From NCBI GenBank assembly GCA_963930775.1, contig OZ005689.1, positions 930,001 to 994,000 on the forward strand: a stretch of DNA of 64,000 nucleotides, given 5' to 3'. Position 1 is the first letter of the stretch. Each line of letters starts with the position of its first letter. Position numbers and translations under genes: made by a program. Source of the DNA: Cliona cf. orientalis (lineage: Eukaryota > Porifera > Demospongiae > Clionaida > Clionaidae). Shown one piece after another: positions 6,259-63,350 of the stretch. The notes under the pieces were generated by a model that saw only the letters and a list, made by a program, of their open reading frames with translations, searched no databases and had not been told where the DNA came from.

Positions 6259-8649
6259 TTACACAAATGACATCTCTACAAAATCAGTTATGACCCCACC
6301 CTCTGCCACACCTCCCACTACCACCAGTTGGTTACCATTGACAACAGCTGCCAGGGAGAGGTATCGGGCTGCCAGAGTTTGACTGACTACTTCCCAACAA
6401 TTGGTGTTAGGATTGTATATGTGGACCAGCGAAGTGATGGCATTGTTCAAACCCTTTCCACCAACTATAAGAAGTTGACCCTGGAGAGTCACACACGTTG
6501 ATAGCATCACTGGACAGTCAGCAATCCTATTCCACACCACATTGGGTTGTTGCAATTGTGTAGTAGAGTATCGTGGATCGGTTGAGGACTTGATAAGGGC
6601 CTTCAGTGAGCATGTGTATGCCGTGTTTGTCTCCTTTCCATTCGTGTTTTGTCCGCCGATGATGTAGATGTTATCTCCGCTGATCGTTGCTGTGGCTACG
6701 CTTTTGGGTTCAGGAAGATGAGCAGCTGCACTCCACTGGCACGTTTCAGCATTCAACACTTCAACGGTTATCAAGTTTGCTCTTCCCTCCATCTCTCCTC
6801 CAGCTACAATCAGAAACGTGTCTGTACTCAGAGCTACCGTTCCTCTTCGTCTGGTTGGCATGGGTGGTAGTATCTCAGTCCACTTACCGGAGCTTCCTTT
6901 CTCGATAAAGCTGATCAACTTATTGGTATAAGATACACTTCCAATAGCTGGGAGACCAAAGATCTTCATACTATCGTTTCCTCCTCCAATTGTGGTGATC
7001 ATGCCATTGACAAATGCCATCGAAAAATTCCCGTATTGACACTCAGGAAGCTGGTACCATTTCTTGTCGGTTGCATTGAAAAGGTAGATTCTTTTGAGAT
7101 TGAAGTGCCTGCAATACATTACAACACCACGTGCAATTGCGTCACACCCCCTATTCATGATACAAGGTGCTCTTTCCTCTACGAATCTCCAAGTGAGGGA
7201 GGGATTGCTACTAGCGACACCAACTCTGGTGCTCGGTTTGGGCACATTGTCATTGCTTGGCAAGTACTGTGCACCAGTATGTTGCGTACTAAGCGGGTGT
7301 GGATGATCATAATATACTGGTGGTAACTGAGATTTCTGACGTACTAATCCATGTGGATCTACCTGTAACTGGTGCTCAAGCTCGTGGATTCGTTTTTCAA
7401 ACTGGACTATGATTTCTTCACTGACTTTCAACTGCTGGCTGAGGTTTCCAAGCTGGTTCTCTTTGTCTTGAATGCATAGATCCTTCTCTCTGATTTGTTG
7501 ATCCTTTTCGATGACTTGTTGCCTGAGCAGTTGATTTCTCTGCTGTTCAGCCGCTATGATTCGTTCCCTTTCTTCAATTATTCCATCTTTCTCCCGAAGT
7601 CGACTCGTTTGTGATTCAATAATCTGCTGGAGACCTTGAATCTGTTGACATGATTGATATTGAGTGCTCACTGGTACAGGTATAGCGTTCATCCTCCGCT
7701 CCAAATTATAACCTCTTTCTTGGGAAGATGCACTATATCTGGAACTTTGCTTCAGAGCTGCTACCCTATAACAAAGCTCCTGAGCTGAGGGACGATCATC
7801 AGCATTATCCTTTAGACAGTCGAGAGAGATCAGTAGGAGTGGGTGGCTGGGGTCAATTTCTCTGATGTGATTCTGTCGCCGATCCACCTCCGGTACATTT
7901 GCTTGCACGGTCCCTCCAGGAAACCGAGGATGATTGATTTTCACTGTTTCTTTTCGATTCCCAGGCTGAGGGAACTTCCGTGTCAGGGTCTGAACTACTA
8001 TGACACCAAATGAGAAGCAGTCGATTTTTTCGGTGTACATTGCAGTGTTGTCAACAGCTTCTGGTGGCATGTAGACATCAGTGCCAGGGCATGTGGTGAT
8101 TGTGAGACGAGTGTTAACATTACGAGTTAACTGAGCCATACCAAAATCTGTGACCTTTGCCCTGATGTTACTAATCAGTAGCACATTGTTGCTGGAGAGA
8201 TCTCTATGGATGATATTGTTGGTATGGAGAAATGAAAGCGCAAGTGATACATCGTGACAGATGTTGACTTGGATATGGTATGGAGTCAGCTCTGAGGATT
8301 CTTCAAGGAAGTGGGTCAAACTCTCATCCATGAGCTCCATCAGCAGTATTGGTGTACCAGTGTCAGGATCTTGGTGTACACCAAGATACTGTATGATATT
8401 TGGATGTCTAAGTGTGCTCAAGAACTCGCATTCTTGTTCAAATCTTCTGATGGGCAGCCTGTGCTCTCTTTGAGGGGGAATATCATACTGTGCTATAGGA
8501 TCAAAGAGAGTTTCGTGTATGAGTTTAGCAGCACAGAGGAGGTCATCACATTTTGCTCTACAAACTTTTCCATAAGCTCCAATGCCAAGCGTCTGGTCTT
8601 TTAGAACTTGAACTGTTTTAAAATTGTGTTTCTTTTCTTGTTGAGCCAT
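6259..8649 (-). CDS. Kinase-coiled-coil-kelch protein, type 1 (intact copy)
   Basis: This single open frame encodes 796 residues. Residues 10-300 form a protein kinase domain of the tyrosine-kinase-like group. It has a glycine loop (LGIGAYGKV, 21-29), lysine 42, catalytic HRDLSSNN (148-155), DFG (168-170) and a PPEA motif near 195. A glutamine/glutamate-rich coiled coil spans about 335-440. Kelch repeats fill about 490-796, with recurring GG and W pairs such as IIGGQN, VVGGVAEGG and NTNCWEVVS. No signal peptide or membrane segment is seen, so it is probably cytoplasmic. The architecture suggests a kinase that dimerises through the coil and binds a target through its propeller; the target is unknown. 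The start is the first ATG in the conserved frame, shared with copy B. Confidence 0.9.
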   Translation of the reverse strand: MAQQEKKHNFKTVQVLKDQTLGIGAYGKVCRAKCDDLLCAAKLIHETLFDPIAQYDIPPQREHRLPIRRFEQECEFLSTLRHPNIIQYLGVHQDPDTGTPILLMELMDESLTHFLEESSELTPYHIQVNICHDVSLALSFLHTNNIIHRDLSSNNVLLISNIRAKVTDFGMAQLTRNVNTRLTITTCPGTDVYMPPEAVDNTAMYTEKIDCFSFGVIVVQTLTRKFPQPGNRKETVKINHPRFPGGTVQANVPEVDRRQNHIREIDPSHPLLLISLDCLKDNADDRPSAQELCYRVAALKQSSRYSASSQERGYNLERRMNAIPVPVSTQYQSCQQIQGLQQIIESQTSRLREKDGIIEERERIIAAEQQRNQLLRQQVIEKDQQIREKDLCIQDKENQLGNLSQQLKVSEEIIVQFEKRIHELEHQLQVDPHGLVRQKSQLPPVYYDHPHPLSTQHTGAQYLPSNDNVPKPSTRVGVASSNPSLTWRFVEERAPCIMNRGCDAIARGVVMYCRHFNLKRIYLFNATDKKWYQLPECQYGNFSMAFVNGMITTIGGGNDSMKIFGLPAIGSVSYTNKLISFIEKGSSGKWTEILPPMPTRRRGTVALSTDTFLIVAGGEMEGRANLITVEVLNAETCQWSAAAHLPEPKSVATATISGDNIYIIGGQNTNGKETNTAYTCSLKALIKSSTDPRYSTTQLQQPNVVWNRIADCPVMLSTCVTLQGQLLIVGGKGLNNAITSLVHIYNPNTNCWEVVSQTLAARYLSLAAVVNGNQLVVVGGVAEGGVITDFVEMSFV

Positions 8650-9357
8650 GTCTGAAAATGTTCCATGAAGTATAAAATTATACGTCTGATAGCTATAATA
8701 ATATTATTTTAATTAAGGCTTTTAATTATTACAGTTTTTGTACTAGACTCATTATGTATGCGTTGGTGATAGAATTAACAATCCCATTGATAAAAACATT
8801 ACTCCACATGAGATCTTTTGTGTTTGCATTTGAGTTCAATTATCACACATTTTATCATAATAATCTTTTAGCTTTATCTTTCAGTTTTACTTAATTAAAA
8901 CAACTAATCGGGTTGATCTGAGTCTCACGGTCAATGGTGATAAATTAACAGCTATACTGTAAACTTAAAAATACATGTATTTATATCAGGTGTACACTTA
9001 AAGTTAACGTTGATGGTATATGCACTAATTATTGTTTGGCAGCTTGCATGTCATGGTTATTGTCATTATCATTACACTCAAGTGTAATATGCATAGCTTG
9101 TATCTTACACTAAATCTTCTGTTCAAAAGCTGTATGATCAATAATAGCATGAGTAATAAACACAAGTGCTGTTTCACTAAACAAGGCTAGTATCGTTAGT
9201 ACCATTAACGTTGCTCCAAGGTAAAGAAATAATATTATTATGCAGAACATGCCCTATAATAGCCTATGGCAGAATTGTAAAGTAAAACTAACACACGATA
9301 ATATATAATAATTATTATAGTTATTATTAAGTAGTCATTTTCTGTCCATAGTTGCAA
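8650..9357. other. Spacer upstream of type-1 kinase gene
   Basis: AT-rich, with no gene seen. It should contain the promoter of the kinase-kelch gene. The homologous stretch in copy B is split by a Helitron at the junction near 8713. A third, diverged copy lies at 51580-52230. Confidence 0.5.
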
Positions 9358-11233: not shown

Positions 11234-11320
11234 GTAATCCACGTGTTAACTTCACGTACACTTGGCTAATTATCAGGGTAACCACACTGAGAGGAAAGAA
11301 CCGAAGGGCTTTGCAGTGCA

Positions 11321-11439
11321 TATATAAGACCTTGCATCTTCTCTGCTTTGGCATTCCATCCTACAAAGAGAGGACTACATTATCAACAAACAAAATGAAA
11401 AAATTTCTCCAAACAGAGAGACTCCTACTCCAACCATGA
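11321..11439 (+). promoter_or_regulatory. TATA box, leader and overlapping upstream ORF of GIY-YIG gene
   Basis: TATATAAG (11321-11328) is followed by a short leader. An upstream ATG at 11395 opens a 14-codon frame (MKKFLQTERLLLQP) whose TGA stop overlaps the main start as ATGA. Translation could therefore be coupled or repressed through re-initiation. In copy A the upstream ATG is ACG, so this upstream frame is absent there. The function is inferred from layout only. Confidence 0.5.
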
Positions 11440-11969
11440 AGAAGCTGGTCATATTTCTCACATTCACGATCGGTGCCCTGATGATGCTGGACTCTGCTCA
11501 AGCTTGTAAATACAAAGAAGCTGGTTATGTCTATATCATTCAGGAAGGACTGCCAACCCTGCACAACAAAATTTTGTATAAGGTCGGAGGAACCAAAAAG
11601 GAAGAATTTCAGGAGCGTCTGACAAATCTACAAACAGGTAACCCTCGGAAGCTGACAGTGATGAAATCATATCTGGTGACTGATTGCAAGTCGGGAGAAA
11701 ACGTTGCACACGCGGCAGTTCAAGAAAAGTATCCATGTCCCTTCGGTGGTGGAACAGAGTGGTTTATGGTACCAAATGATGCTGCACACGAACAAGATTT
11801 CTATGTCTCAATTGACACAAAGCTGGCGGCGAAAGAACACTTGGTAGCAGAATCATATAACGGACTCCCCCAACAGCAGCATGTAGCTGCCCGTAAGGTA
11901 CAGTTGGCTAGACGTCAGGGTGACAAGTCTCGTCGATTCATAAAGTTCATCACATCCCTACTTGATTGA
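11436..11969 (+). CDS. Secreted GIY-YIG/T5orf172-like protein (intact copy B)
   Basis: This single exon encodes 177 residues. Residues 1-23 form a clear signal peptide ending at DSAQA before Cys24. The mature part matches the GIY-YIG superfamily, T5orf172 branch. It has GYVYII (30-35), YKVG (48-51), Arg61 in QERL, GNPRKL (68-73), Glu88 with His92, and EWF (108-110). These correspond to the active-site tyrosines, arginine and glutamate of GIY-YIG nucleases, so catalysis is possible. A basic tail (about 150-177) could bind nucleic acid. Such domains are usually intracellular and common in phages and bacteria, so the secretion signal is unusual. The role is unknown; an extracellular or lumenal nuclease is one inference. 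The start is chosen because it gives the signal peptide. Confidence 0.8.
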   Translation: MKKLVIFLTFTIGALMMLDSAQACKYKEAGYVYIIQEGLPTLHNKILYKVGGTKKEEFQERLTNLQTGNPRKLTVMKSYLVTDCKSGENVAHAAVQEKYPCPFGGGTEWFMVPNDAAHEQDFYVSIDTKLAAKEHLVAESYNGLPQQQHVAARKVQLARRQGDKSRRFIKFITSLLD

Positions 11970-15309: not shown

Positions 15310-16665
15310 AAGTCTAATGGAATTCGTGCATGGGATTGTACCCATACACTTTCGAGAATCCGAATACTTTGGGAGAATAGTCTCTGTGATGAGAATTACA
15401 GCCAGCTTCCAGTTAGGGAGAATGATTGATCTCGGTGATGTGAATTTGTTGCAGCCAGCTGTACTGTGATTTTCTAAGGTGCATGGGATGTATCCATACA
15501 CTTTGAAATTCGAAAATCCCGAAACAACTATTATTTGGAAGAATGGTCTCAGTGATGACAATTTGTTGCAGTCAGCTGTACTATTACACATCATATCCAG
15601 TTTGGAAGAATTTGTCTCGCATGAGAATTTGTTGCAGCCAGCTGTACTGTGATTTTCTAAGGTGAATGGAATTGTGCCAATACATGCACTTTTGAGAGCC
15701 ATAATACAGCTATTACGTATCGTATCCAGTTTGGAAGAATTTGTCTCGGTGATGAGAATTTCTTGCAGCCTGTTGTACTATGATTTTCTAAGGTGAATGA
15801 GGTTGTGCCCATACACTTTCGAGAGCCATTATAGTAACAGCTATTACACATCGTATCCAGTTTGGAAGAATTTGTCTCGGTGATGAGAATTTGTTGCAGC
15901 CAACTTAACTGTACTGTGATTTTCTATGGTGAATGGAGTTGTGCCCATACATTTTGGAGAGCCACAATTATACAGCTATTACACATCGTATCAAGTTTGG
16001 AAGAATTTGTCTCGGTGATGAGAATTTGTTGCAGCCAGCTGTACTGTGATTTTCTAAGGTGAATGGAGTTGTACCCATACACTAATGCAGCTATTACACA
16101 TTGTATCCAGTTTGGAAGAATTTTGTTTCGGTGATGAGAATTTGTTGCAGCCAGCTGTACTGTGATTTTCTAAGGTGAATGGAATTACTTTCGAGAACCA
16201 TAATACAGCTATTACACATCGTATCCAGTTTGGAAGAATTTGTCTCGGTGATGAGAATTTATTGCAGCCAGCTGTACTGTGATTTTCTAAGGTGAATGGA
16301 GTTGTGCCCATACACTTTCGAGGGCCACAATACAGCTTTTACACATCGTATCCAGTTTGGAAGAATTTGTCTTGGTGATGAAAATTTGTTGCAGCCAGCT
16401 GTACTGTGATTTTTTAAGGTGAATGGGATTGTGCCTATAAACTTTCGAGAGCCAAATACAGCTATTACACATCGTATCCAGTTAATTTGGAAGAATTTGT
16501 CTTGGCGATAAGAAGTTGTTGCAGCCAGCTGTAACTGTGATTTTCTAAGGTGAATGGGGTTGTGCCCATACACTTTCGAGAGCCACAATACAGCTATTAC
16601 ACATCGTATCCAGTTTGAAAGAATTTGTCTCGGTGATGACAATTTGTTGCAGCCAGCTGCATGGG
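15310..16665. repeat. Tandem array of about ten ~127-bp units (copy B)
   Basis: These are the same units as at 3815-4860, with more copies and better conserved spacing near 16040-16640. Copy number and length differ between the two segments, so the array has expanded or contracted since the duplication. The long minus-strand frames here (for example 16259-16705) merely read through the repeats and change frame between units. The last unit joins the exon-like stretch ending near 16722. Confidence 0.85.
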
Positions 16666-18044: not shown

Positions 18045-20809
18045 TTACACGAATGCCATCTCTATATAGTCAGTTATGACCCCACCTTCTGCCACACCTC
18101 CCACTACCACCAGTTGGTTACCATTGACAACAGCTGCCAGGGAGAGGTATCGGGCTGCCAGAGTTTGACTGACTATTTCCCAACAATTGGTATTAGGATT
18201 GTACATGTGGACCAGCGAAGTGATGGCGTTGTTCAAAGCCTTTCCACCAACTATAAGAAGTCGTCCCTGGAGAGTCACACATGTTGACAGCATCACTGGA
18301 CAGTCAGCAATCCGATTCCATACCACATAGGCTTGTTGTGTGTTAGAGTATCGTGGATCGGTAGATGACTTGATGAGGGTCTTCAGTGAGCAAGTGTACG
18401 CTGAGTTTGTCTCCTTTCCGTTCTTGTTTTGTCTGCCGATGATGTAGATGTTGTCTCCGCTGATCGTTGCTGTGGCTACGCTTTTGGGTTCAGGAAGATG
18501 AGCAGCTGCACTCCACTGGCACGTTTCAGCATTCAACACTTCAACGGTTATCAAGTTTCCTCTTCCCTCCATCTCTCCCCCAGCTACGATCAGATATGTG
18601 TCTGTACTCAGAGCTACCGTTCCTCTACGTCTGGTTGGCATGGGTGGTAGTATCTCAGTCCACTTACCGGAGCTTCCTTTCTCGACAAAGCTGATCAACT
18701 TATTGGTGTAAGACACACTTCCAATAGCTGGGAGACCAAATATCTTCATACTATCATTTCCTCCTCCAATTGTGGTGATCATGCCATTGACAAATGCCAT
18801 CGAAAAATTCCCGTATTGACACTCAGGAAGCTGGTACCACTTCTTGTCGGTTGCATTGAAAAGGTAGATTCTTTTGAGATTGAAGTGCCTGCAATACATT
18901 ACAACACCACGTGCAATTGCGTCACACCCCCTGTTCATGATACAAGGTGCTCCTTCCTCTACGAATCTCCAAGTGAGGGAGGGATTGCTACTAGCGACAC
19001 CAACTCTGGTGCTCGGTTTGGGCACATTGTCATTGCTTGGCAAGTACTGTGCACCAGTATGTTGCGTACTAAGCGGGTGTGGATGATCATAATATACTGG
19101 TGATAACTGAGATTTCTGACGTACTAATCCATGTGGATCTACCTGTAACTGGTGCTCAAGCTCGTGGATTCGTTTTTCAAACTGGACTATGATTTCTTCA
19201 CTGACTTTCAACTGCTGGCTGAGATTTCCGAGCTGGTTCTCTTTGTCTTGAATGCATAGATCCTTCTCTCTGATTTGTTGATCCTTTTTGATGACTTGTT
19301 GCCTGAGCAGTTGATTTCTCTGCTGTTCAGCCGCTATGATTCGTTCCCTTTCTTCAATTATTCCATCTTTCCCCCGAAGTTGACTCGTTTGTGATTCAAT
19401 AATCTGCTGGAGATCTTGAATCTGTTGACGTGATTGATATTGAGTGCTCACTAGTACAGGTATAGCGTTCATCCTCCGCTCCAAATTATAACCTCTTTCT
19501 TGGGAAGATGCGCTATATCTGGAACTTTGCTTCAGAGCTGCTACCCTATAACAAAGCTCTTGAGTTCAGGGACGATCATCAGCATTATCTTTAGACAGTC
19601 GAGAGAGATCAGTAGGAGTGGGTGGCTGGGGTCAATTTCTCTGATGTGATTCTCTCGCCGATCCACCTCCGGTACATTTGCTTGCACGGTCCCTCCGGGA
19701 AACCGAGGATGATTGATTTGCACTGTTTCTTTTCGATTCCCAGGCTGAGGGAACTTCCGTGTCAGGGTCTGAACTACTATGACACCAAATGAGAAGCAGT
19801 CAATTTTCTCGGTGTACATTGCAGTGTTGTCAACAGCTTCTGGTGGCATGTAGACATCAGTGCCGGGACATGTGGTGATTGTGAGACGAGTGTTAACATT
19901 ACGAGTTAACTGAGCCATACCGAAATCTGTGACCTTTGCCCTGACGTTACTAATCAGTAGCACATTGTTGCTGGAGAGATCTCTATGGATGATATTGTAC
20001 GTTGGCATGGAGAAATGAAAGAGCAAGTGATACATCGTGACAAAGGTTGACTTGGATGTGGTATGGAGTCAGCTCTGAGGATTCTTCAAGGAAGTGGGTC
20101 AAGCTCTCGTCCATGAGCTCCATCAGCAGTATTGGTATACCAGTGTCAGGATCTTGGTGTACACCAAGATACTGTATGATATTTGGATGTCTAAGTGTGC
20201 TCAAGAACTCGCATTCTTGTTCAAATCTTCTTTTTTTTTTTTTTTTTTTGTCTATAAGAATTCTTGCTTCAATAGCAAGGGATACACAATAGCCAAAAAT
20301 AAAAGGCTAATCGGGTGTGCACCCGGTGACATAACTAATTACTTACAGTGAGAATACAATAATATTATGCTAGATAATAGTTAAGGAGAGTTAATGTTGG
20401 TTAAGTAAATGCTTAAATGAGTGCAGACTGGGAGAGTTAACAAGGGTTTCATTAAGCGAGTTCCAGGCTCTGACACTGCTGGGAACAAACGAGTGATAAT
20501 AGTAGTTGGTGCGGGCAAACGGACAGTGTAATGTCAGGTCTCTTGCTAGTCTGGTAGAATGTGCTATTTGACTCTGGATAACATCTTCGGGGAAGTCACA
20601 CAGCTTCTGATGGGCAGCCTGTGCTCTCTTTGAGGGGAAATATCATACTGTGCTGTAGGATCAAAAAGGGTTTCATGTATGAGTTTAGCAGCACAGAGGA
20701 GGTCATCACATTTTGCTCTACAAGCTTTTCCATAAGCTCCAATGCCAAGCGTCTGGTCTTTTAGAACTCGAACTGTTTTAAAATTGTGTTTCTTTTCTTG
20801 TTGAGCCAT
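18045..20809 (-). pseudogene. Type-1 kinase-coiled-coil-kelch gene, broken copy B
   Basis: It is nearly identical to the intact gene at 6259-8649. The coiled coil and all kelch repeats remain open from 19484 to 18045, and the start codon at 20807-20809 is kept. The kinase part is broken three times: a LINE insertion at 20231-20603 between the N-lobe and the catalytic loop, four extra bases near 19998 next to the HRD motif, and one missing base near 19590 at the end of the C-lobe. No functional kinase can be made. A downstream start (19484) could still give a coiled-coil-kelch protein, but nothing shows it is expressed. Confidence 0.88.
20231..20603 (-). mobile_element. 5'-truncated LINE insertion with poly-A tail
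   Basis: Copy A is uninterrupted at CAAATCTTCTGATGGG (about 8442). Copy B has 373 bp inserted there, beginning on the plus strand with 19 T, which is the poly-A tail of a minus-strand element. CTTCT is present at both junctions. The minus strand encodes the C-terminal end of a LINE polyprotein, including RTNYYYHSFVPSSVRAWNSL and then SLHSFKHLLN, which is typical of CR1/Jockey-like elements. It destroys the kinase domain of the host gene. Confidence 0.85.
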
Positions 20810-20835
20810 GTCTGAAAATGTTCCATGAAGTCTAA

Positions 20836-21242
20836 AATGAATGCACAGGAGTGCAGAACCCTCACCGCTACATGCATGCATATAGCATGGCTCACACCAG
20901 GCTATGCCACTATGTACACTGTGACAACTTCAATTGAATTATGCACTTGAGAGCCACCGCCTGTTTACACTGTCACTGCATTGACAACTGACCAGCAAAG
21001 CACAGAATGGCAATCAGTCATGTAGTTGAGGTAGGTGCCATGTAAACACAGACTGGCAACAGCTGCACACACTACTCCACTGGGCAGGACTGCCACGTAT
21101 ATCTAGAATGCGTACTTTCTCTATGACGACCCTTACCATTTAGCAAAAGAGGGTTGCGACGGACGGACGGACGGACGGACGGACAGACAAAAATCGCCAA
21201 ACGATTGCAGTAACCCTCCGCCTACGCTTTGCGGCGAGGGTT
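20836..21242. mobile_element. Insertion with (GACG)n tract and AACCCTC inverted ends
   Basis: About 405 bp are present in copy B but absent from copy A (about 8676, TAAAATTATACG). AACCCTCACCGC near 20859 is the inverted counterpart of GCGGCGAGGGTT at the right end. A GGAC/GACG tetranucleotide run lies at about 21158-21184, and CCCTCCGC...GCGGCGAGGG can fold at the right end. No coding is seen. It is probably a non-autonomous element of unknown class. Confidence 0.6.
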
Positions 21243-24430: not shown

Positions 24431-24519
24431 CTAATATTTAGAAAAGTTATATTTAATTATATGTACAAAGAGTGCATGGTTCTGTGTTGAGGAGTGCATG
24501 ATATTTTAAGTCAACTTAC

Positions 24520-26890: not shown

Positions 26891-27009
26891 CTGTGTACAT
26901 GTAAGTATAATTATCAGTATTTGCATAGGTTTAATACTTCTAAGAGAATGTGTCAACTATATTGAATTTATATATTATTGCTAAGAATAATGAATTTTAA
27001 GTTACTGAC

Positions 27010-28017: not shown

Positions 28018-28316
28018 GGGACGTAAAGAACAGGAATGTTATACTCGAAAAACAGACTGTTTGCTTGGTACACGTGTTTGCTTATCGCTTGTGTAACTTT
28101 GCAATTCGCTAAATTAGAACGGCGTTTTTTACGGCCCGTAGCCCAAGGCACGAGAATGCGCAATAGAATATTCTGCGTTTATGTCCATAGAGCATCGCTG
28201 GGTAGCTATATAATTTCGCGTGACGGACGTACCATAATAATAATAATAATATATGATAATATAAAATTCGCGCACAGCTGTACCGTTTATGTGGGGCTCG
28301 CTCAGGCTCGCCCCAA
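28018..28316 (-). promoter_or_regulatory. Helitron 5' region
   Basis: This 299-bp leader between the element's 5' terminus and its start codon presumably contains the promoter. It has an ATA-rich stretch at 28230-28262 and a GGGGC/GCCCC hairpin at the very end (28293-28314). Confidence 0.5.
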
Positions 28317-42500: not shown

Positions 42501-43080
42501 AACTATAGTACTTTGCACTGTCGACGTATGTATCCCTGGTATTTCAAGCATAAAGTTAATGTTTTATAGAGAAACTTACAAACGACATCCAGTGTTATGG
42601 ATACAGTATCAAAACCAGTGAAAGAGCAACTATATCGACCCTCGTCACTTCGACGTACACCGGCAATGGTTAGTGTGGACACTGTGTCTGATGAATTGAT
42701 AACTGCTCTATCAATAGTAACAGCGGGTCCCGTCCATGAAAAATATCCACCATGAGTGGAGTCACCTCCCAGAATACACTGCAAGACTGCATTATTTCCA
42801 CTGTCCACCCTGATTTCAGATATGCTGGGCTCAAAATGCAACAATCGACCTGCATAAGTATAATACATGTAATTATATGCAAGTATGCATGACATTGTAC
42901 ATTTGCAAGGTGCACAAATAATATGCATTCTGCAAATCGTGCGCCTTGACTCAGCATTGAAGCATTGAAGTAGCTAACTTTAAGACATTCACACACACAA
43001 TCTTACTCACCAGAGCAACTGTCAGCCAGTAATAATACCATCAGGGCACACTGAAGCACTTCTATAGGAAAATTATTCAT
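39583..43080 (-). CDS. Receptor tyrosine kinase with two Ig-like domains (12 exons)
   Basis: Exons by splice sites and phase: 43080-43011, 42849-42580, 42317-42000, 41866-41740, 41062-41043, 40970-40852, 40784-40710, 40645-40437, 40376-40264, 40173-40008, 39949-39804, about 39743-39583. Exon 1 starts MNNFPIEVLQCALMVLLLAD, a signal peptide. Exons 2 and 3 each encode an Ig-like domain; the second has YQV where a cysteine is usual. Exon 4 has a membrane helix (GGILGGSFIIMAVAAIGGIL) and then RKRK. The kinase has IGQGEFGIVYKG, VAIKTLK, HRDLAARN, DFGLAE, PLRWLAPES and a final CWKLEAKRRPPF. HRDLAARN marks a true tyrosine kinase. Two Ig domains plus a kinase is known from sponge receptor tyrosine kinases. 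The donor after exon 11 reads AT where a decayed paralogue has GT; without splicing, a stop (TAA) follows after SDDI, losing the last kinase helices. Confidence 0.85.
41285..41644. mobile_element. Short element with 21-bp perfect inverted ends in a receptor-kinase intron
   Basis: TCGTTATGTACAGATATCCTA at 41285 is exactly reverse-complemented at 41624-41644. It lies in the intron between the membrane exon and the 20-base exon. No clear target duplication is found. It contains a tRNA-like segment (41511-41577). Confidence 0.75.
41511..41577 (+). ncRNA. tRNA-like pol III promoter segment (SINE-type head)
   Basis: AGTGTAGTGGTTGGGGC resembles an A box in a D arm, and GCGGGTTCAAATCTCGC is a T-arm with a good B box. 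A T-run follows at 41589. No full cloverleaf closes, so it is tRNA-derived and not a working tRNA. Confidence 0.5.
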
Positions 43081-46139: not shown

Positions 46140-49100
46140 TATGACAGCGGAGGCTTGACATTCGTGGTTATAGATGCAGGGTGCCCTAGCTTGTATACAG
46201 TGTCAACTGCACCACCATCCCAGCCTCCAATCACTAGGATCTCTGTTGATGATAAAACAGCAGCTGCAGTATCAGATCGTGGAGTATAGGTAGTATAGGT
46301 AGATCACTAATGTAGAGCCAGGAGTTGGGTACATATCATTCGTGGCCTCTCCTCCTAGTCCAAATGCTTCTCTCCCTCGAGATCCTATAGCAAAAATTGC
46401 CAGCTAGCACAGTTGCAGTTGGTCCATAGGTTGGAGCAAGAGTATAACATTATATAGGAGTGTTGGGTAGGCTGACTGAGCGTCATGCACTAGTATACTG
46501 CTACCACTGTGGGTGGTCTGATTGGCTGATACAGCATTGCCAAGGAGATCATCAACTGAGGCATAAAATACTTGCTTGAGGTGTAAGTCCTCAAATCCTC
46601 CTAGTGTATAGCATATGGTGCCAATAGCAACCAGTGATATTTCTTGGCAAGCTTTTGGTAGTGGGTCAGTCCTGTACCACTGTGACATGTCTGGTTTAAA
46701 GATTTCAACTGCAGCTGTATAGCTACACTAAGTCTTGTGATGATAGGTCTCCATGGCCACCTGCCACTACGAGTGCTGACTGGAGACTCAAGACACCTGG
46801 AAATGATCTAGATCTGATGTTGGCACGAGAGAAATGGTCTGCTTCCACTTTTGTGATCTCCCACCATATATGTGCACCTCATTAGTCTCTTCTTCATCAA
46901 TCTTTTTCATTCCCCCAACTGCTGCTAGCTTACCATTGACTTGACCCAGACCAAAGTATCTGACAGGAAGTGGTGGTAGAGTGGTCCACTTGTCTTGTGA
47001 TGTGTCATAGCAGTAGATAATGTACTCATCATCATCATCATCATCCGTCACTCCTCCACAGCTAGTAGGCCTTGCCATTGATGACTGTAGTCACTCCATC
47101 AAAATATCCAATTAGTAGACTGAGACACTGTTTGCAGGTGATACTAGCCTGTAGAACCTGTGTATCACACAAGAGGCACTGAGCATTATTGCAGTCAATA
47201 CCAGTCATACATGCATCACATGTACTACTGTAACACTAGAGTAGGTTGAAAATATTTTGGCTGGAGACCTACTTCAGTGTATTACTTATTTAATTAGTTT
47301 TAGCAGAAAATTAATAAGTGCATATATATCACATCTCCGAAAATTTCATTGGATTAGTATTTGGTGTCACATGCGATCCAACTAGCTAAAGACTACCTTT
47401 GCGATATACAGAAACTTCAGTGGAATGCTATTAATGCAGATTAATGGCAGTAAAGAATAATATATCTTCTATGGACACTTTACCGGATAAATGTTTGCCA
47501 ATGAGAGCTGGTGAGAGTCAATAATTGATAATTGCATACAATACTCACATCATTGCATTAGTTACTCACTTGTTGTTTAGTAGCCAGGTAGTCCCTCGTT
47601 TGGTTTTCTGTTCACTCATGCTGAGATAACGTCTTTTTCTTCTAGAGCTCTGCTCTTGGTTTCAAGGTCAGAATCCTTTCTTCTAACTAAAGCATCTTTC
47701 ATTTGAATGATACTATCTTTATCTACAGCAGCTAGCTAGTTGCAGATCTAGTTGTTCTCTCTCCTTTGCTATCATTTGCTTGGACTGTCCTCATTCCTGA
47801 ATCAGGGCTTTGGACTTGGTTTCAATCTGAGATTCATACAGTGTAGCTTTCAATTTCAATTCTGCTATTTTTGCTTCCATTTTAGATGTAACTAGTTGCT
47901 TTTGGGTATAACTTGTAGACGTAGCTGTTCCACTTCACTGGAATGGGCTAACTTTAGTCGATCAATTTCGTCAGATTTTTGTTCCTCTTTATCTTGAACT
48001 TCTTCTCTGAATGATAAGATTTGGCTTTCTTTTTGCTGAACAGCCCTGTCCTTTCCCTCTCCCTCTTCAGTCAAGGCTTTTTTCTCCTCTCCATCTACTT
48101 CAATTTGTCTCAGCATTTCTCTCTGCTCTTCTAGCTGACATATTAGATCAAGGGCATCTCCATACATAACTTCAATGGCTCAACAATTCATGGAGCTAAG
48201 CTGTGCCGCTTGAGTACGTTAACGGTTATAAATCTTGAATCAACAATGCCAAATCGATTAATTGTGCATCTGTATATGCTTTCATCACCATTATGAATAT
48301 TCAAAATCGTTAGACGATCATCCTCGGGGATGAATCGCTCGTCTATGATCCCCACATTCGTATTATTATGATTCCAGACCATATTTCCCGGAGGATCACC
48401 AAAGAAAGCTGGATACGCCACAACTGCATCTGTCTCTTCACTAAATTCCTGATTCTCTGGCCATCCAAAAAATGTGGATCAACTGCAGGCCGGAAATTGT
48501 AACACCATTTCTGCTAGTCGTTCCACAATCTCACCAGTGTGAGCCCTTGCTCGGGATGGTTATTGATGCATTTAAGGATAAGGTCCATCATAGGATGATC
48601 ATTTCCAATGGCTCAAAGGAATGCCTCACGTCGTTCAGCTTCTGTGACTGGAATCAGTCTACCATCAAGCTCTGTGCGATTTGGTCCAACCTGTGGTGCT
48701 GGCCACCTACCACTGAACATGTGGACCATCATAATGCCGTAGGAGAACTCATCAACACTTGTGTCGTATTTGGGGTCGGCTACCATCATGTAGGCAGAGG
48801 TGCCAGGAGTCTGGGTCATGGGACTGACCTGTAGAGGGGTCAGGTTGAGGATTCTGGCCACACCCAGATCAGAGATCTTGGCCGATGAGGAGGAGCGATA
48901 TTGTTGGAAGAGATCTCGGTGAATTAATGATGAGAGGAGTTTGTCTCTAGCCAAGAGCCACGTCATAAAGGATGGAGTAGCTGATCTTCTTTGGAAAAAT
49001 GCCATATTGCTTAATGCAGGAGGTGAGGTTGGTGGGGAGAAACTCCATGACTAGGATGGGTGCTTGCACTCCTTGCTGTAAATAAACTCCCAGAAACTGG

Positions 49101-49354
49101 ACAATGTTTGGGATGGCGTACTTGACTGAGTAGATGACATTCTTCTTCAAATCTGCGAACAGTGTAGCTGGCATCTCCCTGCCTTGGTAGCAGTTCATGG
49201 ATCTTCTTGCCAGCACATTTCAGTCCCATGTACTCCAGTTCTAGCACAGTAGCATAGGCCTAGGAGCCATGTCCCAGCTCTCGATCTGTCACTCTAACTC
49301 CAGTCAGCTTGTAGGGATCAAACCCAGTGAATGTTGCTGGTCTCACAGCACTCA
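46140..49354 (-). pseudogene. Type-2 kinase-coiled-coil-kelch gene, decayed
   Basis: It lies in the same order as 36104-39013. The start ATG at 49354 is kept, then come the kinase (to about 48480), coiled coil (48167-47590), intron, and kelch exon (about 47152-46140). There are many frame breaks: in the N-lobe near 49110, a loss around the HRD loop (48890-48930), a missing stretch in the coiled coil near 47735, and several in the kelch part (46320, 46450, 46730, 46810). A foreign Ig-like exon interrupts it at 48188-48480. It cannot encode a full protein. Confidence 0.88.
48188..48480 (-). pseudogene. Stray Ig-like domain inserted in the kinase pseudogene
   Basis: The minus strand reads FFGWPENQEFSEETDAVVAY, then an Ig fold core (DDRLTILNIHNGDESIYRC, NRFGIVDS, FITVNV) and a stop. 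It lies between the kinase C-lobe and the coiled coil, where the intact gene has only FANRLEMLRQ. The first Ig cysteine is replaced by tyrosine (VVAYPAF). It does not closely match the two Ig domains at 42000-42849. It is probably a transposed exon. Confidence 0.72.
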
Positions 49355-49759
49355 TAATTATAGTCAGCACCAGGAGTAGATAAATGGTCAGCAAATTAAC
49401 AGAGAGTTAACAAGCAACTATAGCTACCTTAGCCTCACATAAACACAGTAAGAGGGGTAGCTATACAAACATTCTGTCATGTGATAACCACAACATTCCA
49501 TTCTTTAAACGAATGTAGTAACGGATATTGTAAGGCTGCATACTTCTTCTGTTAGTATCCTCTGGCATCTGGCCAGGACTTCGTAACATATAGACCACGT
49601 GTAAACCATAATGTTAATTAGTACAATATCATAATATTTTAACTGCATGCACCATACACACTATCATAAATTGTTCACTATCTAGTAGCATCACGATAAT
49701 ACAGTGTTGTATAATATTAATGTCATAATTATTATGGTACTGATGTAAACATTATTGTG

Positions 49760-51139: not shown

Positions 51140-51513
51140 TAGAATCTGATATTAGACAAATGTCATCTCTACAAAATCAGTTATGACCCCACACCTCCCA
51201 CTACCGGTACCACCAGTTGGTTGCCATTGACAACAGCTATCAGTGCCATATGGTATACATATCTGGCTACCAAAGTTTGACTGAAGAATTAGTGTTCGGA
51301 TTGTATATGTGGACCAGCAAAGTGTGCAAAGTGTTGGTGTAGTTCAAATCCAAGAAGTCGATCGTGGAGAGTCACACACTTAATACAGATAGCATGACTG
51401 GTCCAGGACAGTCAGAAAAAGGAAGCTCCAGTTAATGGACGGAGATACTGCCACCCATGCCAACCTACTCGAACTGTTTTAAAATTGTTTCAGATCTTTT
51501 CTTGTTGAGCCAT
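51140..51513 (-). pseudogene. Collapsed type-1 kinase-kelch gene
   Basis: Its right end keeps the start of the type-1 gene (MAQQEK at 51513), and its left end keeps the last kelch repeat and stop. Only about 370 bp of the 2.4 kb remain, with a small middle piece (PMPT region, 51440-51470). The flanks match 5990-6258 and 8650-9357. Confidence 0.8.
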
Positions 51514-53621: not shown

Positions 53622-53730
53622 TCATGGTTATAGATGCACGGTGCCCTTGTGCATAGTGTTCACTGTATCACCATCAAAGCCTCCAATTACTAGGATCTCT
53701 GTTAATGATAAAACAGCAACTGTAGCCTAA
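53622..53730 (-). pseudogene. Type-2 kelch C-terminal fragment
   Basis: About 110 bp match the end of the kelch exon (stop region, GGGCACCGTGCATC, ATCCTAGTAATTGGAGGC on the minus strand). The rest of the gene is absent. Confidence 0.65.
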
Positions 53731-55482: not shown

Positions 55483-56847
55483 TCATCCCTTCAACTGGGA
55501 CTTCGGTGCGACACCCATGACCTTCAGGAACCCAATATGACAGCGCAGAGCATCCCAGAAGGACGGCAATTCATTATAGTGGAGTCCAAATTCGGTGCAA
55601 GTTCTTTTGACAATGGGTGTTATTTGGGGATAGTAGGTGTGCAGGACTGCTGGGAATAGGTGATGTGCCACCTGGTGGTTCAGAGCCCCTGTGAATATGG
55701 TGAAGAACCAGCTCTCCGTGGCATAGTCAACCGTCGTAGCAATCTGCATCTCTGCCCAGTTCTGTTTGATTATTGTTTGATCCGTTTTCAATGAATCACC
55801 TGAATTCTCTGCTGTTGGAGAGGATAAAAAGGCTTTGGCATTGACATGGTTTAACATTAGTGTTGGAGCTAGCCAGAGATTATAGGTCATTTCGGCAATA
55901 AAGTTTATTAGAAGTATTGATGATAAGGGCACGAATAGGTAAGGGAGGACGAACCTGTATGAAAAAAAGATTATCTTAGAAGCAATGAAGGAGATAAGCT
56001 GATATGTGCCTAATTGATTCATTCGAATAGGTCCTTCTTTCATTATAAGGATGGAGTGGAAATCTGTAAGTCTCGCTTTTATCATCGCTATTGAGCTCAA
56101 GATTGGTACATAAATGTGTTGAAAACAGTGGTGGAAACCATCGCTGAAATGGCTTGAGCCTCCGTAAGTCAAGACCATTGTTTGTCGTCTTAATGTCAGG
56201 GTCTGACCCATCTATATTGGTGAAGACATGATGGCCATAGGTGTGTTGATATATCCAGGTGAGGGAGGATGTCGCAGTGATACTATCGCTAATGAAAGTA
56301 GATGCTCTCCAGACCCATGGCTTGTGGGTGATGGCAAAGTGATTGCCATCATGAAAAAGGGTCATGGTGACTAGCATGTTAAGCCATCCTGATGCAGCTG
56401 CCGCAAACAATGCAGTGAGTTGCCATGACGACTGGCATAAAACGATGCATAAATACCAGAATAGGATGGAGAGCACGGCAAAGGTCATGTAACGAAAGAA
56501 GGCAAATGCATCCACTTTTGGATCAAGGTTGTTTGACTTGAAGTAGTCCATTACTCTTGAGTGAAGTGTGCATGCAGAAGAATTCCCCCTCAGTTGGAGG
56601 GAAGGTGGGCATTTCATTGTCCACTAGTTCACCTAGCTACATACTTGTATTTCTCTCCAATGAGTTTGGCAGTCCCGGGTTTGTGATAGCTCTGAAACAG
56701 CTGTGTGATATCTCGCCCAGCTCCCAGCATCAACTGGTCACAGCCACCTGGATGCTTTGCCAGGAACCCACTGGCATCGTACACCTTGCCAGCGTAGGCC
56801 ACGTGTGTGTTGTGTCGCTGGTTCAGCCGGCCTAGCTCAGTCCTCAC
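55483..56847 (-). pseudogene. Front-end fatty acid desaturase with cytochrome b5 domain, frameshifted
   Basis: The N-terminal exon begins after an ATAG acceptor near 56848 and carries the cytochrome b5 haem motif HPGG (ASGFLAKHPGGCDQL). The desaturase has all three histidine boxes: HDGNH, HTYGHH and QVAHH, the last with the glutamine typical of delta-5/delta-6 enzymes. These act in the endoplasmic reticulum on long-chain polyunsaturated fatty acids. The frame breaks near 56632 (four extra bases, GCTA), near 56570 (four extra, ATGC) and near 56130 (two missing, compared with the copy at 58470). The first exon lies outside or is unclear. It is probably a pseudogene, though motif conservation suggests recent loss or assembly errors. 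Confidence 0.8.
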
Positions 56848-58106: not shown

Positions 58107-58930
58107 TCATCCCTTCAACTGGGACTTCGGTGCGGCACCCATGACCTTCAGGAACCCAATATGACAGTGTAGAGCATCCCAGAGAGACGGCAATTCGTTA
58201 TGGTGGAGTCCAAATTCGGTGCAAGTTCCTTTGACAATGGGTGTTATTTGGGGATAGTAGGTTTGCAGGACTCCAGGGAAGAGGTGATGCGCCACCTGGT
58301 GGTTTAGAGTCCAGAAGCGATAAAGGAGATGTGCTGACATGCACTTCGTTGGTTTATTCGAATGGTTCTCTTTTTCATTATGAGAATTGTGTGAAAGTCT
58401 TATGGTGAGTAGCTAGTGAGCACAAGATTGGCACAATATTATTATAGATGTGTTGAAAACGATAATTGGGAAACCAATGCTGAAATGGCTTGATCCTCCA
58501 GAAATCGAGACCATTGTTTATCATCTTAATATCAGGATCTGATCTATCTATATTGGTGAAGATATGATGGCCATAGGTGTGTTCATATATCTCGATGAGG
58601 GAGGATATCCCGTTGATACAATCAGTAACGAAGGTGGATGCTCTCCAGACCCATGGCTTGTGTGTGATTGCAAAGTGGCTAGCTTCATGAAAATAGTCAT
58701 ATTGACTAGTATGCCAAAAAATCTTGTTGCAGCAGCTGCCAACAGTGCTGGAGTTGCCATGACAGCTGGCGTAAAATGATGCACAAACACCAGAATAGGA
58801 TGGAGAGCACGGTAAGGATCGTGTACAGGAGCCCACTGGCATTGTACACCTTGCCAGAGTAGGCTATGTGTGCGTTGTGTCGCTGGTTCAGCCGGCCTAG
58901 ATCTTTGCCTGTGAAACGCCTGTCACTATG
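58107..58930 (-). pseudogene. Desaturase, second copy, deleted
   Basis: It keeps part of the b5 exon (to about 58830) joined directly to the first membrane segment, so the HPGG region is lost. It also keeps the HTYGHH region (58560-58620) and the QVAHH C-terminus (58107-58310). About 350 bp between 58310 and 58400 are missing compared with 55483-56847. The first histidine box is altered (HEASHFAI). Confidence 0.8.
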
Positions 58931-59357
58931 TGACCCCATCTCTGATCTATCAAACTGACATTGTCTCTCTATGGTGATACAAGTTTATAGGAGCAACTGT
59001 TCAACAGGTATACATGTAATTGATGACGGTGATGAGGTACAGTTATCAGCTAAGGCTTCTGTCTATTGGCCATCCATGTGTGTAATTAATAATCTAGTGC
59101 AGTTACCAAATTATGATTTCTGTCCATTAGCACTATAGCATGCATGTATGTACAATTCCTTCGTGTATAGGTGCTGGCCCTCCCCCATTGGCTGTTACAT
59201 GTACGATGGCTACGTGTGCGTTGTGTCGCTGGTTCAGCTAGCCAGCCTAGCTCCTCGCCTATGTGAGTACATCTCTGATCTATCAAACTAAAAGTCTAAA
59301 ATTAGGTTTATATATTATAGGAACAAGTGTTCATCAGGTTTTGATAACCACTCTGTG
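58931..59357. other. Desaturase upstream flank with another b5 scrap
   Basis: 59150-59290 repeats the b5 exon edge (GCTGGTTCAGCTAGCCAGCC). No complete gene is seen. Confidence 0.45.
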
Positions 59358-59731
59358 TCTCAGTTGATGATCTCCTTGGAAATGCTGTATCAGCCAACCA
59401 GACTAACCACAGTGGTAGCAGTGACACTCAGTCAGCTTGGAAGACACTACCCAACACTCCAACCTATCGACCAGCTGCAGCTGTGCTAGCTGGCAACCTT
59501 CTTGCTGTAGGAGGAGAAGAAATATCTAAAGGAGGAGATGACATAAAGGAAATGTGTATGTACTCTCCCTCTACCAACTCCTGGCTCTATACTAGTGATC
59601 TACCTGCTCCACGATCTGCAGATACTACAGTTGCTATTTTGTCATCAACAGAGATCCTAGTGATAGGATGCTGGAACGGTGGTGCAGTGGACTCTGCCAC
59701 GGTGTACAACGGCACCTTGCATGATCTATAA
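59358..59731 (+). pseudogene. Type-2 kelch C-terminal fragment, inverted
   Basis: The plus strand reads VDDLLGNAVSANQTNHSGSS, then LPNTPTYRPAAAVLAGNLLA and a final ILVIGCWNGG up to a stop. This is the last ~120 residues of the type-2 kelch exon. It has the opposite orientation to every other copy in the window. The 5' part is missing. Confidence 0.75.
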
Positions 59732-60748: not shown

Positions 60749-60989
60749 TGAAGACAGATAAACAATGTATGCATGCATAGCTACATGAACCTGAACTAGT
60801 GGTACCCACAGTATTGTATATATAGATTTATGGCACAAAATATGAACCTTATGTACTTGCTGTACTATTGTATCCACAACATTTCTAGATATATGGCACA
60901 AATATCATGTACAGAAACCATAGATGATAACTGTACCTCATCACTATCTCAATTATATGTACATCCATTCATTCTCTCTCTTGAGCTAG

Positions 60990-62150
60990 TTGTAGATCTA
61001 GTTGCTCTCTCTCCTTTGCTATTCAATGCATTAAATTTGTTTGGACTGTTCTCTTTCCTGAATCAGGGCTTTGGACTTGGTTTCAATCTGAGACTTATAC
61101 AATGTAGTTTTGGATTTTAATTCTGCTATTTCTGCTTCCATTTTAGATGCAACTAGTTGAGTTTGGGTATTCCAATCTCTAACTTGTTGATGGAGCTGTT
61201 TTACTTCACTAGAATGGGCTAACTTTAGTCGATCGATTTCTGCAGATTTTTTGTTCCTTCTCAGCTTCAATTTCTTCCCTGAATGATGAGATTTGGCTTT
61301 CTTTTTGCTGAAGAGCCCTGTCCTTTCACTCTCCCTCTTCAGTTAAGGCTCGTTTCTCCTCCCAATCTGCTGCAATTTGTCTCAGCATTTCCAATCAGTT
61401 AGCAAAGTGGCAGAAAACTGCAACACCATTTCTGCTAGTTGCTCCACAATCTCACTGGCATGAGCCCTTGCTTGGGGATGGTTGTTGATGCATTTAAGGA
61501 TAAGATCGATCAGAGGATGATCATTTCCAATGGCTCGAAGGAACACCTCACGTCGCTCAGCTTCTGTGACTGGAATCAGTCTACCATCTGATTCTGTACG
61601 ATTTGGACCAACCTGTGGCTCTGGCCACCTACCACTGAACATGTGGATCATCATAATACCATAGGAGAACCCATCAATACTTGTGTCGTATTTGGGGTTG
61701 GCAACCATCACCTCTGGTGGCATGTAGGCAGGGATGCCAGGAGACTGGGTCATGCAACTGATCTATATAGGGTCAGGATAAGGATCCTGGCCACACCCAG
61801 ATCAGAGATCTTGGCCGTCATGTTAGGGGTGAGGAGGACATTGTTGGAAGGGAGATCTCGGTGAATGATGGGAGGGGTTTGACTGTGGAGGTAGCACAAG
61901 CCCAGAGCCACGTCGTAAAGGATGGGGTAGCTGATCACCTTTGGGAGAATATCATATATTAATTGCTCAATGCAGGAGGTGAGGTTGGTGGGGAGAAACT
62001 CCATGACTAGGATGGGTGCTTGCACTCCTTGCTGGAAACAGACTCCCATGCAGGAACTGGACAATGTTGGGGTGGCGTACTTGACTGAGTAGATGACATT
62101 CTTCCTCAAATCTGCAAACAGTGCATGTAGCTGGCATCTCCCTGCCTCAG
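60990..62150 (-). pseudogene. Type-2 kinase with coiled coil, truncated
   Basis: The kinase runs from the LRQGDASY region (about 62150) to the C-lobe end near 61385, then coiled coil to about 60990. HRDLPSNN replaces HRDLSSNN, and ISDLG is kept. Frame breaks occur at 62050, 62120 (four-base inserts), 61765 and 61300. The first ~55 codons are missing; the homology stops next to the palindrome at 62166. No kelch exon follows. Confidence 0.85.
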
Positions 62151-62165
62151 TACTAGAGCAGTTAA

Positions 62166-62232
62166 TGAATCTGCTATTGTTACGTATACAGTAATATACT
62201 ATATTACTGTATACGTAACAATAGCAGATTCA
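62166..62232. repeat. Perfect 32-bp palindrome with 3-base spacer
   Basis: The sequence TGAATCTGCTATTGTTACGT and the following 12 bases is exactly reverse-complemented after ACT. A second, smaller palindrome (10-bp stem, one-base loop) follows at 62236-62256. They sit at the point where the kinase pseudogene is cut off. Confidence 0.9.
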
Positions 62233-62405
62233 TTCAGTAGATTAAGTTAATCTACTTGAAACATATTATACAAGCATTGGCTTGATTCACTGCAGCATCG
62301 ATATTGACCAACATAATATTGAAATCAATAACAAAATTAATTTAAAATTGTTGCCGATAATGATAGTGGCCACATCATAAAATTAATGTATTAATATTAA
62401 TACAT

Positions 62406-63350
62406 TCATGGTTGTAGATGCAGGGTGCCCTTGTACACAGTGTGGACCATGTCATGACCATCATCCCAGCCTCCAATCACTAGGATCTCTGTTGATGACA
62501 AAACAACAGCTGTGGTGCGAGACCGTGGAGCTGGTAGATCACTAATGTAGATCCAGGAGTTGGTGGAGAGAGAGTACATATAGATTTCCTTCTTGGCCTC
62601 TCCTGCAAGTCCAGATGTTTCCCTTCCTCCTACAGCAAGAAGTTTACCAGCTAGCACAGTTGCAGTTGGTCCATAGGTTGGAGTGTTGGGTAGCGTCTTC
62701 CAAGCTGACTGAGTGTCACTGCTACCACTGTGGGTGGTCTGGTTAATTGGTACAGCATTGCCAAGGAGATCATCAACTGAGGCATAAAAAACTTGGTTGA
62801 GGTGTGAGCCAACGAATCCTCCGAGTGCATAACATGTGTTGCCAATATCAACCAGTGATATGCTTCGATAAGCTGTAGGTAGTGGGTCAGTCCTCTGCCA
62901 CTGTGATGTGTCTGGTTTGAAGATTTCAACTGCAGAAGCGCATGCATATGTTGTTGTGCGTCCACCTGCCACTACAAGTGCTGACTGGAGGCTCAAGACA
63001 CCTGGAGACCATCTAGCTGTTGGCATGGGAGGAATGATCTGCTTCCACTTTCGTGATCTATCATCATAGTATGTGTGCACTTTATTCGTCTCTTGATTAT
63101 CAATCTTTTTCTCTCCCCCAACAGCTACTAGCTTGCCATTGACTTGACCCAGACCGAACCGTCTGACAGGAAGTGGTGATAGAGTGGTCCACTTGTCTTG
63201 TGATGGGTCATAGCAGTAGACAATGTAGTCATCATCACTATAAGTCACTCCCCCAAAATAAACCTTGTCATTGATGATTATAGTCACTCCCTCACCTAAT
63301 CCAATTGGTAGATTGGCACACTGTTTCCAGGTGATACTGGCCTGTAGAAC
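62406..63350 (-). CDS. Type-2 kelch exon of a gene extending past the right edge
   Basis: The open exon begins after acceptor ACACAG at 63351 (phase 0, as in exon 2 of the gene at 36104) and reads about 314 residues to the stop. It contains kelch signatures such as LVAVGGEKK, LLAVGGRETSG and ILVIGGWDDG, each with the usual W and Y positions. No breaks are seen. The kinase exon would lie beyond 64000, since the intron begins here. It belongs to a different gene copy from the truncated kinase on its left. Confidence 0.8.
   Translation of the reverse strand, partial: VLQASITWKQCANLPIGLGEGVTIIINDKVYFGGVTYSDDDYIVYCYDPSQDKWTTLSPLPVRRFGLGQVNGKLVAVGGEKKIDNQETNKVHTYYDDRSRKWKQIIPPMPTARWSPGVLSLQSALVVAGGRTTTYACASAVEIFKPDTSQWQRTDPLPTAYRSISLVDIGNTCYALGGFVGSHLNQVFYASVDDLLGNAVPINQTTHSGSSDTQSAWKTLPNTPTYGPTATVLAGKLLAVGGRETSGLAGEAKKEIYMYSLSTNSWIYISDLPAPRSRTTAVVLSSTEILVIGGWDDGHDMVHTVYKGTLHLQP

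Follow-up and report, generated by a model that had tools for sequence, protein, structure and literature searches.

A genome-wide family of kinase–coiled-coil–kelch genes in the sponge Cliona cf. orientalis with diversifying selection on one face of the propeller

Accounts of innate immunity in animals mostly centre on TLRs, NLRs, lectins, and SRCR proteins, and TKL kinases of the IRAK, RIPK, and Pto type act in innate immunity in animals and plants. Kelch domains, in turn, are classic substrate-docking modules. Allorecognition, which sponges show, usually depends on one or a few linked polymorphic loci. For the sponge Dysidea avara, 126 NACHT+LRR genes have been reported (PMC12909245, excerpt). 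Here, we analyzed a 64,000-nucleotide stretch of the genome of the demosponge Cliona cf. orientalis (assembly GCA_963930775.1, contig OZ005689.1, hereafter C1, C1:930001-994000; "the window"), in which an earlier note, made from the sequence alone, had described an expanding cluster of genes combining a kinase, a coiled coil, and a kelch propeller. The genome searched comprises 216.8 Mb in 149 contigs. We found that the kinase of this family is mainly under purifying selection and the propeller under diversifying selection on one face, in each of three subfamilies (A, A', and B). Open-access PMC text, a body of literature outside which subscription papers, preprints, and supplements lie, yielded no description of such a kinase–kelch family.

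The protein family and selection on its domains

As the earlier note had it, two types of gene that differ in exon structure and share the domain order kinase, coiled coil, kelch occur in the window in at least eight copies or fragments, from intact to collapsed. Searching with the window's own proteins (tblastn) identified three copies or fragments of type A and five of type B, with one intact copy of each (A1 and B1, Table 1); six-frame open reading frames (ORFs), tblastn, and Pfam indicate a single exon for type A and two exons for type B. Between the types, the kinases are ~35% and the propellers ~24% identical (tblastn). An origin of the single-exon type A by retroposition of type B was set aside, as the kinases are too diverged for it.

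Pfam identified both the kinase (Pkinase, 2.6e-41 in A1 and 4.3e-38 in B1) and the kelch domain (Kelch_1, 3.4e-15 and 1.4e-32). We call the kinase TKL-like because BRI1 and IRAK4 rank best among its sequence matches in the PDB, a label taken from best matches and not from a kinome tree; entries 2qkw and 3hgk, titled just "Protein kinase" among these matches, we take to be Pto. The catalytic residues VAIK K42, alphaC E73, HRD D150, and N155 are present in 43/43 intact A/A' genes and the DFG aspartate in 42/43, and the kinase is predicted to be active. In a hydropathy scan, no signal-like N-terminus or transmembrane segment was seen in 43 A/A' genes. Since the most hydrophobic 19-mers sit in the propeller and the N-termini are not signal-like, the proteins look cytosolic. 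The kelch domain was modelled with AlphaFold2 from four window sequences as six blades (predicted local distance difference test, pLDDT, 72; predicted template modelling score, pTM, 0.78). Its nearest folds according to foldseek are designed SAKe propellers, followed by KLHL20, KLHL3, KLHL12, and KLHDC2, with KEAP1 further down. A full-length model of low confidence was used solely for the 99-residue helix at 332-430.

Genome-wide, the copies are not few, a question on which the earlier note had made its interpretation depend: we counted at least 353 kinase loci on 19 chromosomes as the union of the A, A', and B sets, which have zero overlap. Only the best candidates were scored per genome search, and family counts are thus lower bounds. 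The A1-type protein search scored the best 55 of 1468 first-look candidates and the search with the B kinase exon the best 81 of 1362; later queries were the 116-amino-acid kinase core of each subfamily (L018 for A, L047 for A', the window gene for B). For A, all 150 scored matches reached at least 80% identity. For A', 92 of 150 rows were kept, the other 58 being 56 A loci again and two that were neither A nor A'. For B, 111 of 150 were kept; the 39 dropped lay mostly below 69% identity and included one at 69% and four above it, partial matches, the window's own B5 among them. Clusters with gaps of at most 30 kb hold 262 of the at least 353 loci, and 91 stand alone.

Stop-to-stop frames of at least 700 amino acids were found in 92/150 A and 54/92 A' loci (146/242 together), and 4 of the 30 A loci L009-L038 have no frame of 700 amino acids. 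We used 54 long frames (at least 690 amino acids), all of which carry the kinase P-loop motif; the 51 that belong to A/A' align across kinase and kelch, and three (L056, L058, L129), which match neither the A nor the A' motif, were excluded from the selection tests. A kelch frame lies beside 7 of the first 8 type B kinase exons, in three cases cut by the locus end or a stop. No kelch frame was found within the 1.5-kb flank of the type B kinase exon just outside the window at C1:995313-996914 (L040), and L124 has no open kelch frame of 150 amino acids. A separate kinase cluster at C13:6.86-6.99 Mb, ~60% identical to type B, has short frames of 182-317 amino acids; a different architecture may be expanding there.

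Origins outside the sponge were considered and rejected. A scan of GTDB contigs with the family alignment returned 47 loci, all of which match query residues 17-347 (kinase and linker start) and none the kelch part; the two that were inspected (L087, L094) are bacterial kinases without kelch. L087 (1718-3031) encodes a kinase with an HRDLSSNN motif, in a frame without kelch domain, in the sponge-associated Sansalvadorimonas verongulae. Among the 20 pattern matches from a scan of viral contigs, there was no relative.

Selection was analyzed with codon models in code of our own (MG94 x HKY with a grid posterior as in FUBAR, plus M7, M8, and M8a). Columns gapped in more than about one fifth of the rows (more than 3/7 in the 7-gene B set) were excluded, so that part of the BC loops is uncovered. 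In the first sets of 26 A and 17 A' genes, the nonsynonymous to synonymous rate ratio (omega) was 0.33 and 0.30 for the kinase and 0.60 and 0.66 for the kelch domain. Sites with a posterior above 0.9 numbered 2/300 (A) and 2/290 (A') in the kinases and 10/292 and 13/304 in the propellers. The comparison of M8a with M8 gave likelihood ratio test (LRT) statistics of 271 (A) and 215 (A') for the propellers, with omega of 3 and 4 on 12% and 11% of sites. Using trees of half propellers, all ten sites plus one were recovered in A, and twelve of thirteen plus two in A'.

Enlarged sets of 31 A and 20 A' genes gave omega values of 0.25 and 0.31 for the kinase (2/295 and 1/290 sites) and of 0.59 and 0.67 for the kelch domain (8/293 and 15/294 sites). 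In B, omega was 0.79 for the propeller (7 genes) and 0.33 for the kinase (8 genes, 2/271 sites) in small sets, and 0.61 for the propeller with 14 genes (8/305 sites); from this enlarged set, L114 and L116 (191 and 250 amino acids) were dropped as short, while L117 (290 amino acids), the end of which is apparently interrupted, was kept. Selection on the family is therefore not uniformly purifying, the second point on which the earlier note had staked its view.

The selected sites of the propeller are unevenly distributed. Loops DA and BC were assigned to one face and AB and CD to the other by blade topology on the model, not by measurement; termini and columns without A1 counterpart were excluded from the loop and strand counts. 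In KEAP1, the DA/BC face holds the Nrf2 pocket, and its ligand-binding residues sit, as we assume, just after P-x-R and G-G motifs. Residues R380, N382, R415, R483, S508, Y525, S555, and S602 of KEAP1 are named in ligand contacts or docking (PMC6770765, excerpt). In the enlarged A, A', and B sets, sites above 0.9 make up 6/90, 9/95, and 8/90 of the DA+BC positions, 0/46, 0/39, and 0/51 of the AB+CD positions, and 2/146, 3/145, and 0/147 of the strand positions. For DA+BC versus AB+CD, this corresponds to p = 0.08, 0.04, and 0.02, and the three subfamilies summed give 23/275 versus 0/136 (p = 7e-5, homologous sites being treated as independent). Compared to all other non-terminal sites, DA+BC is enriched with p = 1.4e-2 (A), 3.8e-3 (A'), and 7.3e-5 (B). 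The first sets gave, against all other sites, 8/89 versus 2/194 in A (p = 0.0019) and 9/93 versus 2/184 in A' (p = 0.0012), with one positive site of the first A set in a CD loop.

The subfamilies also agree with each other site by site (Spearman 0.32, 0.18, and 0.15; p = 4e-8, 2e-3, and 1e-2), including within the DA+BC loops alone (0.46, 0.28, and 0.24). One DA-loop position recurs per blade (model residues 28, 69, 131/132, 179/180, 245, and 293; +471 for A1 numbering), and 6/6 DA loops are hit in the 26 A genes at a posterior above 0.7 (permutation p = 0.0085). Signatures of twelve pocket residues, at positions picked after the selected sites had been seen, are distinct in 51/51 A/A' genes, tandem neighbours included, with entropies of 1.9-3.7 bits.

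A probable recognition repertoire and its alternatives

Taken together, we regard the family as probably a germline repertoire of cytosolic sensor kinases in Cliona cf. orientalis that diversifies by ligand recognition, NLR-like without a NACHT domain. Two general features of germline recognition repertoires are found in it, namely many clustered paralogues with gain and loss, and diversifying selection on the binding face, the face being known by homology. The interpretation in the earlier note is in part supported: recognition-driven turnover is supported, because the copies are not few and selection is not uniformly purifying but, on the propeller, one-sidedly diversifying. Its appeal to the neighbouring genes is weak, because the Ig-type receptor tyrosine kinase (Ig-RTK) and GIY-YIG genes were each duplicated together with the local copies. 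The analysis covered one haplotype, and immunity, allorecognition, and symbiosis are candidate purposes that its results do not separate.

In such a repertoire, each copy would bind a different cytosolic protein or peptide via the propeller pocket, and the coiled coil would pair or cluster the chains. Clustering would then let the kinase trans-autophosphorylate and signal into one shared pathway. The copies would act as recognition receptors that work like NLRs, with the kinase in place of the NACHT switch. Microbial, viral, or symbiont products are the likeliest ligands, followed by allorecognition. In both A and A', the tree of the kinase and that of the kelch domain are mutually rejected (log-likelihood differences of 117-214, p = 0 in the Kishino-Hasegawa and Shimodaira-Hasegawa tests; for the approximately unbiased test, the program warns of too few replicates). 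The simplest cause is gene conversion or domain exchange among paralogues, which would leave the kinase heads similar despite differing sensors.

Cliona cf. orientalis keeps dinoflagellates inside its cells (PMC12639293, excerpt). More tentatively, this sponge lineage might possess, beside NLRs, a separate class of intracellular innate receptors: sensor kinases on a single chain, with a kelch pocket evolving in the manner of an antigen-binding site. Gene conversion would then hold the heads uniform as the pockets diversify, and some of these receptors may serve to police or admit the dinoflagellate symbiont.

Several observations weigh against the recognition reading. It is drawn from sequence comparison and predicted structures. 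Gene conversion, for which the discordant trees are evidence, can inflate selection tests and is the main technical threat; the selection code is our own and not HyPhy or PAML, and was checked by simulation on a fixed tree alone. The assignment of loops to faces depends on a structure predicted with moderate confidence (pLDDT 72) in which strand A of blade 1 was set by hand, and the full-length model is poor (pLDDT 53), so that the arrangement of the domains is not readable from it. The kinases carry 1-2 sites each above 0.9 in the A, A', and B sets, and M8 is significantly preferred for them as well (LRT 29 in A and 15 in A'; omega 3 and 2 on 2% and 7% of sites). In subfamily A alone, DA+BC differs from AB+CD with just p = 0.08, and at a posterior above 0.9, just 3/6 DA loops are hit in the 26 A genes (permutation p = 0.23). 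Positive sites also occur outside both loop types, in strands (2 in A, 3 in A') and termini (2 in A'). Finally, microbial signals lowered kelch-motif genes in Aplysina aerophoba and Dysidea avara, where the excerpt lists two such genes, both down, and leaves a kinase fusion unstated (PMC6208332). Ser/Thr kinases changed as well in that study (PMC6208332, same excerpt). A further hint comes from Mycale grandis, where genes with kelch propellers and genes with kinase domains differed according to niche and symbionts, in a passage that is silent on their fusion in one protein (PMC11000336).

The selection pattern itself cannot tell non-self from rapidly changing self. It is possible, if unlikely, that the propellers recruit varied endogenous substrates, as KLHL adaptors do, and that the paralogues divide labour among targets and are not in conflict with non-self. 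The kinase is conserved, the nearest natural folds are KLHL20, KLHL3, KLHL12, and KEAP1, and the evidence does not point to a foreign ligand. For stable endogenous targets, however, broken copies in local arrays would be unusual, as would 51/51 distinct pockets and recurrent positive selection in three subfamilies. Quite improbable is a role as self/non-self receptors in allorecognition or gamete recognition, with propellers that read polymorphic self proteins. Although the diversified propellers of fungal HNWD proteins serve this role, with diversifying selection acting on four codons of each WD40 repeat at the surface of interaction (PMC12222747, excerpt), at least 353 loci over 19 chromosomes are far from the usual genetics of allorecognition, and the sponge proteins appear to be cytosolic.

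Relaxed constraint, under which propeller loops drift neutrally after duplication and many copies become pseudogenes, is very unlikely. It would fit the frames below 700 amino acids in 58/150 A and 38/92 A' matches, many of which are presumably broken, and the overall kelch omega below 1 (0.59-0.67). However, there is a site class with omega of 3-4, and M8a is rejected in A and A' at p < 1e-48; catalytic residues are kept, and 20 null simulations per set on a fixed tree fall short of the observed counts, giving 0-3 (A) and 0-4 (A') propeller sites compared to 10 and 13. Neutral drift is above all disfavoured because the effect is missing from the AB and CD loops of the opposite face, which have no site above 0.9 in the enlarged sets; together with the simulations, this largely refutes it. 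That uncollapsed haplotypes were counted as copies is highly improbable even in a very heterozygous assembly with a primary k-mer completeness of 60.5%, as curators removed 81 haplotypic duplications (PMC12639293, excerpt), DNA divergence between local copies, which lie in tandem on one chromosome, is ~12%, and A matches, the query itself aside, diverge from the query by 4-20% over the conserved 116-amino-acid stretch.

Features of the window

The neighbours are as the earlier note had described them, an Ig/Ig/transmembrane-like/tyrosine kinase gene (Pfam) and a GIY-YIG-clan protein with a signal-like N-terminus (Pfam; by eye and hydropathy). A1 and A2 share one segmental duplication (3798-8448 versus 15638-20231, 88%), and together with a type A copy just outside the window (C1:923710-926079, one stop) they form three tandem units of ~12 kb each. 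Both type A units inside the window contain the GIY-YIG-clan gene, one of the two copies being broken; the units of B1 and of B2 have the Ig-RTK or its kinase part. The 3' flank of A1 also matches by A3, at C1:980967-981131. The 131-bp minisatellite is confined to three tandem copies (L009, L010, L011) among the loci tested; a diverged block of it lies at C1:4.344-4.347 Mb.

Table 1. Copies of the kinase–coiled-coil–kelch genes, neighbouring genes, and other elements in the window (positions within the window; aa, amino acids; TM, transmembrane)
Feature	Position	Strand	Basis and remarks
A1, type A gene, intact, single exon, 796 aa	6262..8649	-	ORFs, Pfam, tblastn; TKL-like kinase aa ~20-300, coiled coil ~332-430, six-bladed kelch propeller ~485-796
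A2, type A copy, disrupted by an insert of ~370 bp and by frame changes	18045..20838	-	tblastn; pieces 18048-19655, 19589-20065, 20001-20231, 20606-20809, the last two separated by ~370 bp
A3, type A remnant, C-terminal kelch scrap in two frames	51155..51405	-	tblastn
B1 exon 1, kinase and coiled coil, 530 codons	37424..39013	-	ORFs, Pfam
B1 intron, phase 0, GT-AG	37043..37423	-	predicted from sequence alone; donor GTGAGT at 37423
B1 exon 2, kelch propeller	36104..37042	-	ORFs, Pfam
B2, type B copy, broken, many frame changes	46190..49355	-	tblastn
B3, type B scrap, end of kelch domain	53631..53723	-	tblastn (E=1.3e-6, 61%)
B4, type B scrap, inverted kelch fragment	59351..59722	+	tblastn
B5, type B copy, broken	60981..63368	-	ORFs, tblastn; kelch frame 62406-63449 remains open
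Ig-Ig-TM-tyrosine kinase gene	40260..42973	-	Pfam, sequence; frames 42503-42973 and 41992-42405, TM-like ~41855, kinase 40260-40652
Ig-tyrosine kinase gene, partial copy	49752..50940		
Gene with signal-like N-terminus and T5orf172 (GIY-YIG clan)	11328..11969	+	Pfam; N-terminus by eye/hydropathy
GIY-YIG-clan gene, second copy, frame-broken	~1..740	+	tblastn; part of type A tandem unit
131-bp minisatellite 3' of A1	4027..4859		part of local tandem unit
131-bp minisatellite 3' of A2	15581..16659		
Helitron-like element	22412..26769	-	Helitron_like_N 2.8e-35 and helicase-like frame (PIF1-like by eye)
STPR-type repeat frame	26968..28038		adjoins Helitron-like element
Transposable-element-like repeat, 178-aa frame	1583..2234 and 30459..31093	+	two copies, 98% alike
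Fatty-acid desaturase gene	55483..56623	-	
Similar copy, apparently broken	58378..58922	-	inside duplicated block

Comparison with known systems

A Pfam scan of A1 and B1 found no NACHT, NB-ARC, LRR, or WD40 domain, no BTB or BACK domain, and no Death domain (RHIM was not searched for). The family shares with NLR/STAND receptors that large cytosolic families combine a conserved signalling part with a sensor diversified at the interaction surface, a likeness in working and not in membership; the output of the sponge family, however, is a protein kinase, and as sensor it has a kelch propeller with six blades of no great similarity to one another. A search for NACHT in the same genome, in which the best 103 of 490 candidates were scored, gave at least 104 matches, so that both families are undercounted and their sizes cannot be ranked. 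Large NACHT arrays lie chiefly at C6:8.97-9.78 Mb and C14:4.7-8.1 Mb, with some open frames of 1000-3700 amino acids.

With IRAK/RIPK/Pto-type kinases, the family has in common a TKL-type kinase domain with its catalytic residues, whereas the sponge protein is without ectodomain and has its sensor fused on the same chain. KLHL proteins and KEAP1 share the six-bladed kelch fold and, in the case of KEAP1, the ligand face of DA and BC loops; in contrast to these, the sponge propeller is fused to a kinase, and its pocket residues are hypervariable between paralogues. Coral Tachylectin-2 is likewise a beta-propeller recognition protein with positively selected sites, but a lectin without kinase, and none of its selected sites coincides with sugar-binding residues in that study (PMC2880987).

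If our reading is correct, one of the earliest-branching animal phyla would gain a further class of receptor, made up of hundreds of fused sensor kinases with diversifying pockets. Fungal HNWD proteins likewise sense with a beta-propeller, in which diversifying selection acts on hypervariable codons (PMC12222747, excerpt), and the sponge family would then represent a further case, besides HNWD, of a propeller as hypervariable sensor.

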